Assembly (NCBI GenBank): GCA_002773845.1
Contig: PEZZ01000002.1
Location: 14,565 to 47,204, forward strand
DNA: 32,640 nucleotides
Origin: Candidatus Buchananbacteria bacterium CG10_big_fil_rev_8_21_14_0_10_42_9
Lineage (GTDB): Bacteria > Patescibacteriota > Patescibacteriia > Buchananbacterales > 21-14-0-10-42-9
Direction: 5' to 3'
The stretch's first letter is position 1, and each line of letters opens with the position of its first letter. Below, one piece after another: positions 4,494 through 6,447 of the stretch. The notes under the pieces were generated by a model. That model worked only from the letters and a program-made list of their open reading frames with translations. It was not told where the DNA came from and did not search any database. Position numbers and translations under genes: made by a program.

Positions 4494-5081
4494 ATGGCAA
4501 TTGACACATCAACTATCAAACAACTCAGAGAACAAACCGGCGTTGGCGTGGCCGATGTTAAGTCGGCCCTGGAAGAAGCTCAAGGCGATACTCAAAAAGC
4601 GCTAGAAATTTTGAGAGTTAAAAGCGCAGTTAAAGCATCCAAAAAGGCGAGCCGCGAAGCCACCGAAGGTTTGGTGGCAAGTTACATTCACACCAACGGT
4701 AAAGTCGGCGTGTTAGTTGATGTCAGCTCAGAAACTGATTTTGTCGCCCGCAACGATGAGTTTAAGCAGCTGGTAAATGATATCGCTATGCACATCGCCG
4801 CCGCTGACCCACTTTATGTTAAGGCTGAAGATGTGCCCGCAGAAGTTTTAACCAAAGAAAAAGAAATTATAGCCGAACAGCTTAAAGAAGACGGGAAAAC
4901 CGATGAGATGATTGCAAAAATAATGCCCGGAAAAATTGATAAGTATTATGAGGAAGTGTGTTTATTAAATCAGCCTTTTATCAAGGATGATTCAATGACC
5001 ATTGCCCAGCTGATTGAACAAAAAATCGGCGCGTTGGGAGAGAAAATAGAAGTCAGACGTTTTGCGAGGTTTCAAAAGTAA
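4494..5081 (+). CDS. tsf: Elongation factor Ts (short form)
   Basis: A 195-residue guanine-nucleotide exchange factor for EF-Tu. The N-terminal UBA-like domain runs from 1 to about 55 (IKQLREQTGVGVADVKSAL). The core exchange motif SSETDFVARNDEF lies near 79-91, with TDFV inserting into EF-Tu. The C-terminal part resembles that of short Thermus-type EF-Ts, and the second core repeat and long coiled coil of the E. coli form (283 residues) are missing. It follows rpsB by 13 bases without a Shine-Dalgarno sequence, so coupling to rpsB translation is likely. A strong terminator follows. Confidence 0.97.
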   Translation: MAIDTSTIKQLREQTGVGVADVKSALEEAQGDTQKALEILRVKSAVKASKKASREATEGLVASYIHTNGKVGVLVDVSSETDFVARNDEFKQLVNDIAMHIAAADPLYVKAEDVPAEVLTKEKEIIAEQLKEDGKTDEMIAKIMPGKIDKYYEEVCLLNQPFIKDDSMTIAQLIEQKIGALGEKIEVRRFARFQK

Positions 5082-5100: not shown

Positions 5101-5125
5101 AAGAGGCACTTGTGCCTCTTTTTTT
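5101..5125 (+). terminator. Intrinsic terminator after tsf
   Basis: AAGAGGCAC TT GTGCCTCTT (5101-5120) running into a T tract to 5125. It lies 19 bases after the tsf stop. Confidence 0.93.
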
Positions 5126-5127
5126 GG

Positions 5128-5156
5128 TTGACTTTTATAGATAGGTAATTTAAATT
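5128..5156 (+). promoter_or_regulatory. Promoter for the 36-residue micro-ORF
   Basis: TTGACT (5128-5133), 17-base spacer, TAAATT (5151-5156). It starts directly after the tsf terminator and points into the GC-rich segment at 5160-5330. Predicted transcription start near 5163. Confidence 0.6.
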
Positions 5157-5199
5157 TTATTCTTAAGAGGTGCCATGGTTTGTAATGGAAGGAGGGTCC

Positions 5200-5310
5200 A
5201 TGGCTCGGAACCATAGGAACGGAAGATCTGAGAGGCGACGCGCACGCAAAGATGCGCGTAGGCGCGCGCGGCGCGCTAAGCGGAAGAAAAATAAGCCTAC
5301 GCGTCAGTAG
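5200..5310 (+). CDS. Arg-rich 36-residue micro-ORF
   Basis: An open frame for a 36-residue protein with 14 Arg and 5 Lys and only two acidic residues; it starts MARNHRNGRS and ends KPTRQ. The Shine-Dalgarno sequence AAGGAGG (5189-5195) is four bases from the ATG and is the strongest in the window, and a promoter lies upstream. The composition suggests rRNA or nucleic-acid binding, like the smallest ribosomal proteins, but it matches neither bTHX, bL34, bL36 nor the bS22-like family as I know them. Arg codons are very mixed (CGG, AGG, CGC, CGA, CGT, AGA) and the segment is far more GC-rich than its surroundings. It also contains a 9-bp inverted repeat (CGCGTAGGC / GCCTACGCG), so a structured RNA is the main alternative. 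Confidence 0.55.
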   Translation: MARNHRNGRSERRRARKDARRRARRAKRKKNKPTRQ

Positions 5311-5391
5311 CGAGGCGTCAATTTTCCGTCACGGCAGGCATGTTCATTGCGAGCATGTCGGCCACTCAGTCTGTATATTGATTGCATGATG
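5311..5391. other. Spacer upstream of gap, no feature seen
   Basis: Between the micro-ORF stop and the gap promoter I see no terminator with a T run, no open frame and no RNA gene, only short GC-rich complementary stretches. Confidence 0.4.
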
Positions 5392-5433: not shown

Positions 5434-6447
5434 ATGTCAGTACGTATTGCAATTAATGGCTTTGGCCGAATTGGCCGCGCGGCATTGAAGGCCGCCTTGA
5501 ATAATAAAAATCTTGAGGTAGTTGGGATTAATGATATTGTTGACAACAAAACTTTGGCGCATTTACTGCAATACGATACGGTTTACGGAGAATTTCCTGA
5601 AACAGTTCGAGCAACAAAAGATTCATTGATGATAGGCAAGAAAAAAATTCCGGTGAGTGAAGTTCGTAAACCTGAAAAATTGCCGTGGGGAAAATTAAAA
5701 GTTGACGTCGCGATTGAAAGTACTGGCGTATTCCGAAAAGCGGAAGATTTAAAAAAACATTTACAAGCCGGTGCCAAAAAGGTTTTACTGTCAGCTCCGG
5801 CTAAAAGCGGCGGTACTCAGACTTTAGTTTTTGGCACGCAAGAGACTAAAAAAAATCTTGGCCAGTCAGATATTGTTAATAACGCATCTTGTACTACTAA
5901 CTGTATCTCGCCGGTAGTGCAAGTTTTGCATTCACGTTTTGGCGTTGAAAAGGCTTTAATGACAACAATTCACGGGTATACCTCGGATCAGCGTTTGGTC
6001 GACGCGCCGCATAAAGATTTGCGCCGCGCCAGGGCGGCGGCAGTGAATATAATACCCACAACGACAGGAGCGGCAATTGCCACCACGCACGTCATACCAG
6101 AGCTTAAAGGTTTGTTTGACGGCACAGCGATTAGAGTGCCGGTACCAGTTGGTTCAATTTCAGATATTACACTTTTACTTAAACGTAAAAAGGTGACGGT
6201 GAAACAAATCAACGATGAGTTTAAAAAGGCTGTTAATAATCCGCTTTATAAAAATATTTTGGAAATTACGAATAAACCAATTGTGAGTTCTGATATAGTG
6301 GGCAATCCGCATTCGGCGATTGTTGATCTTGAATTGACGCAAGTTGCCGGCGGCAATTTAGTTAAAGTCTTTGCCTGGTACGATAATGAGTGGGGGTATG
6401 CTAACCGGTTAGTAGAGATGGCCGAAGCCCTCGGTCGCCAAGCTTAG
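5434..6447 (+). CDS. gap: Glyceraldehyde-3-phosphate dehydrogenase, type I
   Basis: A 337-residue phosphorylating GAPDH that oxidises glyceraldehyde-3-phosphate to 1,3-bisphosphoglycerate. The NAD-binding GFGRIGR is at 9-15, the acidic residue after strand 2 is in INDIVD (32-37), the catalytic Cys is C153 in ASCTTNC, the His partner is H180 in TTIHGYT, and the C-terminal signature WYDNEWGY is near 317-324. Length is normal for the family. Translation starts without a Shine-Dalgarno sequence. The next gene starts two bases after the stop, so the membrane protein is likely made from the same mRNA. In CPR cells with reduced metabolism this is a core step of lower glycolysis. Confidence 0.97.
   Translation: MSVRIAINGFGRIGRAALKAALNNKNLEVVGINDIVDNKTLAHLLQYDTVYGEFPETVRATKDSLMIGKKKIPVSEVRKPEKLPWGKLKVDVAIESTGVFRKAEDLKKHLQAGAKKVLLSAPAKSGGTQTLVFGTQETKKNLGQSDIVNNASCTTNCISPVVQVLHSRFGVEKALMTTIHGYTSDQRLVDAPHKDLRRARAAAVNIIPTTTGAAIATTHVIPELKGLFDGTAIRVPVPVGSISDITLLLKRKKVTVKQINDEFKKAVNNPLYKNILEITNKPIVSSDIVGNPHSAIVDLELTQVAGGNLVKVFAWYDNEWGYANRLVEMAEALGRQA

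Follow-up and report, generated by a model that had tools for sequence, protein, structure and literature searches.

The window, the whole stretch of 32,640 nucleotides analysed here, contains a 36-codon arginine-rich frame in the interval of about 350 bases between tsf (4494-5081) and gap (5434-6447), and this frame is probably a real protein-coding gene (Table 1). Taken as a whole, the best explanation, to which we assign a probability of about 0.5, is a lineage-restricted gene that would be translated from a strong Shine-Dalgarno (SD) sequence and whose product would be a polybasic helix docking on structured RNA. We infer that the frame is transcribed and translated, and translation by itself we regard as likely. 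As the sequence-only reading of this DNA had counted, 19 of the 36 residues are basic (14 Arg and 5 Lys).

Table 1. Features of the tsf-gap interval and loci of Lys-rich microproteins (positions without a locus name refer to the window)
Feature	Position	Strand	Details
Intrinsic-terminator-like hairpin and T run, end of the tsf unit	5101-5125	+	hairpin arms 5101-5120
Sigma-70-like promoter match, TTGACT-17-TAAATT	5128-5156	+	9/12; weak
13-codon upstream frame, different phase	5175-5216	+	overlaps the SD and the start of the Arg-rich frame
Shine-Dalgarno sequence AAGGAGG	5189-5195	+	4 nt 5' of ATG 5200
36-codon Arg-rich microprotein MARNHRNGRSERRRARKDARRRARRAKRKKNKPTRQ and stop	5200-5310	+	ATG 5200, TAG 5308-5310
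Lys-rich H1-like strong-SD microprotein	L139:15625-15705	-	
Lys-rich H1-like strong-SD microprotein	L210:1516-1734	+	
Lys-rich H1-like strong-SD microprotein	L246:1502-1618	+	
Lys-rich H1-like strong-SD microprotein	L247:1451-1540	-	
Further Lys-rich H1-like loci	L233, L155, L157, L165, L178		

Layout of the tsf-gap interval

The hairpin that closes the tsf unit has 8 pairs, 4 of them GC pairs, and a TTTTT tail, and its arms appeared as 9-nt perfect arms in a separate repeat scan. The terminator scan gave this 1 match where 0.6 were expected from shuffles, and the promoter scan gave 1 match where 1.6 were expected. The frame had earlier been credited with its own promoter after the tsf terminator; the hairpin and the sigma-70-like match do exist, but neither is better than what shuffled DNA provides, so that the promoter is a consensus match and separate transcription of the frame is plausible only.

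Several other features were seen in this interval. Positions 5167-5216 hold two tandem SD-plus-ATG-like units, which form a 19-nt direct repeat of 74% identity (5167-5185 and 5192-5210), and the first of these units opens the 13-codon frame, which may be a chance occurrence. An almost perfect hairpin with no T run (5333-5363) lies between the arginine-rich frame and gap, and a TATACT box stands immediately 5' of gap. A longer, 46-residue version of the arginine-rich frame, starting at GTG 5170, was dropped because the SD would then fall within the frame.

The start signal and composition of the frame

The AAGGAGG in front of the frame is an exact 7-base match to the 16S tail of the same genome (the complement of which reads AAAGGAGGTGATC). 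SD motifs are scarce in this genome: among 255 long frames from a sample of 329,007 bases, 238 lack all of the listed motifs (of at least 4 bases) at the first start and 17 have one, and a 7-base SD is reached by 3 of the 255 when the best ATG within the first 40 codons is scored. Within the window, just one other AGGAGG has a start 3-11 nt 3' of it, and it opens a frame of 3 codons. The claims that this is the strongest ribosome binding site in the window and that almost no other gene shows such a start signal therefore both hold. By itself the motif is no proof, as AGGAGG-N3-10-ATG occurs at 46 sites in the whole genome (30 of them inspected as loci) against 27 for the reversed pattern, and over half of such sites could thus be chance. 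Folding predictions place the SD, mostly unpaired, within a hairpin loop and give about 80% pairing for the first two bases of the ATG. The 4-nt spacing between SD and ATG is short.

We then considered composition and SD together, using all frames of 20-80 residues with in-frame ATG starts in the same 329,007-base sample. A K+R fraction of at least 0.5 was found in 2 of 2,648 frames, namely the arginine-rich frame and a Lys-rich 27-mer, MAKKRKVAKKRKAAPKRKKKVVRRKKR, at L139. Both of these have an SD match of at least 7 bases (7-8 bases), as do 5 of the other 2,646 frames, and at a displaced control position neither of the two has a match of at least 6 bases. Dinucleotide shuffles of the frame stayed open in 21% of cases, and were open with at least 19 K+R in 1 of 20,000.

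Predicted structure and possible function

A single-sequence AlphaFold model of the product consists of one helix, spanning residues 9-30, with a mean pLDDT of 82.5 and block means above 90 for residues 11-30. Alanines 15, 19, 23 and 26 lie on one face of this helix. Apolar residues follow the 100-degree helical period (permutation P = 0.007, in a test chosen after seeing the sequence), and the Eisenberg moment was not significant (P = 0.09). A helix with one face of small residues could fit the groove of a structured RNA.

These predictions suggest how the gene might work. It would be transcribed on its own, past the tsf terminator, and its exceptionally strong SD would direct translation of a single polybasic alpha-helix of about residues 9-30, with a predicted alanine face and an arginine/lysine face. 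This helix may dock on the phosphate backbone of a structured RNA, much as free arginine-rich helices do, the target most likely being rRNA or another abundant RNA. Charge and predicted shape are what point to a function and to a binding partner, whether one RNA or another or DNA, and on these grounds the product is probably a basic helix standing on its own, which would bind RNA, perhaps rRNA, or DNA.

With its short, arginine-rich, predicted helix, the product resembles arginine-rich motif (ARM) peptides. One study describes short positive segments that turn helical on RNA, with the N peptide of phage P22, which binds boxB RNA, as an example, and mentions the same for ribosomal proteins (PMC11480772). 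The arginine-rich product, a putative RNA binder, perhaps works like such a helix; the ARM of P22 N forms the N-terminal segment of a longer protein, unlike the free-standing frame described here.

Search for relatives

The nearest genomes compared were 11 of the same order, and the comparison is thus at the level of the order and beyond. The best named EF-Ts relatives in one public collection include Uhrbacteria and Magasanikbacteria alongside unrelated phyla, which accords with a Patescibacteria genome. Both tsf and gap were found in 10 of the 11 same-order genomes, and in each of the 10 no more than about 6 kb separates them. In 10 same-order genomes the tsf loci, taken with up to 1.5 kb of flanking sequence per side as contig ends permitted, hold no basic frame resembling the arginine-rich one. 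About 600 bases 3' of tsf were also inspected (the G003 stretch opens within tsf and reaches no further than the beginning of the following gene). Nor was such a frame present in the 800 bases 5' of gap in 10 same-order genomes. In some of these genomes the regions inspected cover the tsf-gap interval in part. The sequence-only reading had looked to the tsf-gap junction of related genomes for a conserved frame and had taken lack of conservation in close relatives as an argument against one; none of the 10 same-order genomes that have both tsf and gap showed the frame beside these genes, and its conservation fails at the order level. A leader or arrest peptide for gap was also considered, and the gap genes of 10 same-order genomes are without the frame.

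Wider searches gave the same result. A DNA search of 35 genomes found no relative (best E value in other genomes 0.007, over 19 bases). With tblastn, which is weak for 36 low-complexity residues, no homologue was found in 285 genomes of the class, where 11 other places were other-frame or stop-interrupted chance matches, none showing, within the stretch inspected, a start and an SD for the matching frame, or in 379 genomes of the phylum, where none of 6 other places was a short basic SD-bearing frame. The pattern of the alanine stripe occurred at 12 other places in 380 class genomes, against 9 for a reversed control, none of them resembling a short frame with a start and an SD, and a search of viral contigs for MARNHR behind GGAGG returned three longer, unrelated proteins. 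The frame had no match in Pfam, NCBIfam or PHROGs at E values up to 10, and PDB sequences yielded a single chance match, to plant bL28m (E = 7.3). Among the papers listed for small proteins, SD sequences and ribosome structure of Patescibacteria/CPR, none describes the frame or the Lys-rich class discussed below, as judged by titles and the openings of abstracts. The arginine-rich frame is probably a lineage-restricted orphan gene.

A wider class of strong-SD basic microproteins

In 380 class genomes, GGAGG followed by a basic MA- start occurred at 34 places, against 3 for the reversed pattern. Of 30 places inspected, 12 are frames of at least 20 residues with at least half K+R, the arginine-rich frame included. 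A further pattern search gave 60 places, of which 51 were inspected and 9 left out, and neither pattern yielded a relative. Most members of the class are Lys-rich; such frames are also carried by the same-order genomes G002, G009 and G011, and the genome studied here carries two that are Lys-rich and strong-SD, of 27 and 73 residues. Six of the Lys-rich microproteins had no Pfam or NCBIfam family match.

Lys-rich H1-like microproteins repeatedly stand tail-to-tail with a conserved TIGR00375-like gene of about 400-440 codons. At nine Lys-rich loci, counting both copies in the genome studied here, the convergent gene is 51-74% identical to that genome's own copy at L139, which scores 181.7 bits against TIGR00375, under the cut-off of 326.6. 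Other short K/R-rich microproteins with strong SDs, which form a second set at L164, L171, L172, L173 and L174, face mutually similar genes, of which the one at L164 matches O-antigen ligase (Wzy_C). Another candidate small gene, near a contig start (L127:63-230, + strand, in G000:C6), is a 55-residue frame that contains Cys and Arg and has an AAGGAGG SD.

The arginine-rich frame belongs to the wider class by its strong SD and by a K+R content of at least half, the Lys-rich members (L139, L210, L246, L247, L233 and others) having likewise a strong GGAGG SD, half or more K+R and lengths of 21-73 residues. It differs from them in having neither their Lys/Pro/Ala repeats nor their conserved convergent neighbour, for which no match was found in the window at an E value of 1e-5. 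Aligned with three Lys-rich members, it showed no similarity beyond composition (P = 0.40, 0.26 and 0.93). The frame thus shares the SD habit and the charge of the Lys-rich class, and neither its sequence nor its neighbour.

Alternative explanations

These comparisons bear on the alternative that survives best, which we nevertheless consider unlikely: the product may be a free polybasic nucleoid protein, or a protamine- or H1-like protein, that neutralizes and compacts DNA and is functionally related to the Lys-rich microproteins which this genome also encodes. The two H1-like frames noted above, both with strong SDs, make this conceivable, but the arginine-rich frame has Arg in place of Lys and no AAPKK/PAKR repeats, an ordered helix is predicted, the neighbourhood differs, and the alignment (P = 0.40) does not rise above shuffles.

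We judge it improbable that the frame encodes a lineage-specific ribosomal protein that would occupy an rRNA pocket as a bare basic helix, comparable to bS22, eL41 or bL37, and very doubtful that it is an unrecognized ribosomal protein of one reduced-genome lineage whose arginine helix would fill a pocket like that of eL41 or bS22 by independent origin. Length, K+R content and the single helix resemble those three proteins, and genes for ribosomal proteins and translation abound in the window (L25, PrmC, RF-1, L31, S2, EF-Ts and L9). Basic ribosomal microproteins that had gone unannotated are described from cryo-EM in two studies (PMC5876184, PMC10618245). According to these studies, Borrelia bS22 has 61% K+R and lacks annotation as a ribosomal protein in its genome, its eukaryotic analogue has one 24-residue helix, and its site is a pocket of 16S h2/h27/h44/h45 (PMC10618245), and bL37, a basic, helix-bearing, lineage-specific protein of 24 residues in Actinobacteria, was unidentified before cryo-EM and was recognized when small ORFs were fitted to the density (PMC5876184). 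Such ribosomal proteins therefore exist and evade annotation, and the arginine-rich product perhaps works as bS22, eL41 or bL37 do.

The sequence itself gives a different picture. The bS22 family (AURKAIP1/COX24, DUF1713, with the analogues eL41 and mS38) is alike in having about 30 residues, more than half K+R and a helix, but the arginine-rich frame has no KKHRKLL-type core and was no more similar to bS22 than its own shuffles were (P = 0.76); the same comparison gives two true bS22 members a score of 147, where shuffles average 40. It also had no match to the bS22 Pfam family at E values up to 10, although HMMER bias filters may hide weak bS22 matches. We likewise rejected eL41 (P = 0.42) and bL37 (P = 0.99, and from an unrelated lineage), whose alignments do not exceed composition, and bL34, which this genome encodes on another contig (G000:C34) and for which the frame has no Pfam match. 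No PDB chain scored below an E value of 7.3, though phmmer retrieves known ones from queries of 24-33 residues, and absence from same-order neighbourhoods would be unusual for a ribosomal protein. The earlier proposal of a ribosomal or RNA-binding microprotein stands in part: the SD, the frame and composition statistics and the single-helix model support a translated, basic, nucleic-acid-binding microprotein, but a ribosomal role is doubtful, the frame lying outside the rpsB-tsf unit and behind the terminator-like hairpin.

About as doubtful is the possibility that the region acts as a structured non-coding RNA, or as a regulatory leader, and that the frame is a by-product of a GC-rich, purine-rich element. 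Local GC content is about 0.6, against 0.42 in the genome sample, there are inverted repeats within the frame, and the region folds slightly more strongly than controls (z = -2.08; 9 of 200 shuffles and 15 of 500 synonymous versions folded as well). When the frame's own codons were permuted, however, 76 of 500 versions folded as well, which makes the folding ordinary. Rfam gave no match at the gathering score, with permissive matches far beneath it, the region 5' of gap showed no such element in 10 same-order genomes, and composition alone rarely yields such a frame. Least probable is that a basic frame which is not translated happens to adjoin an AAGGAGG arising by chance; this would suit an orphan in a genome where the reversed motif is also frequent, but the joint rarity of composition and SD counts against it.

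Implications

Frames this short tend to escape gene callers. Few genes in this genome show a strong SD, and a strong SD together with an extreme basic composition singles out probable genuine microproteins (2 of 2 in the sample). The combination can therefore serve to screen uncultured bacteria for basic proteins that annotation has missed. A ribosomal role of the arginine-rich product, if it had one, would extend the short list of known lineage-specific ribosomal proteins.
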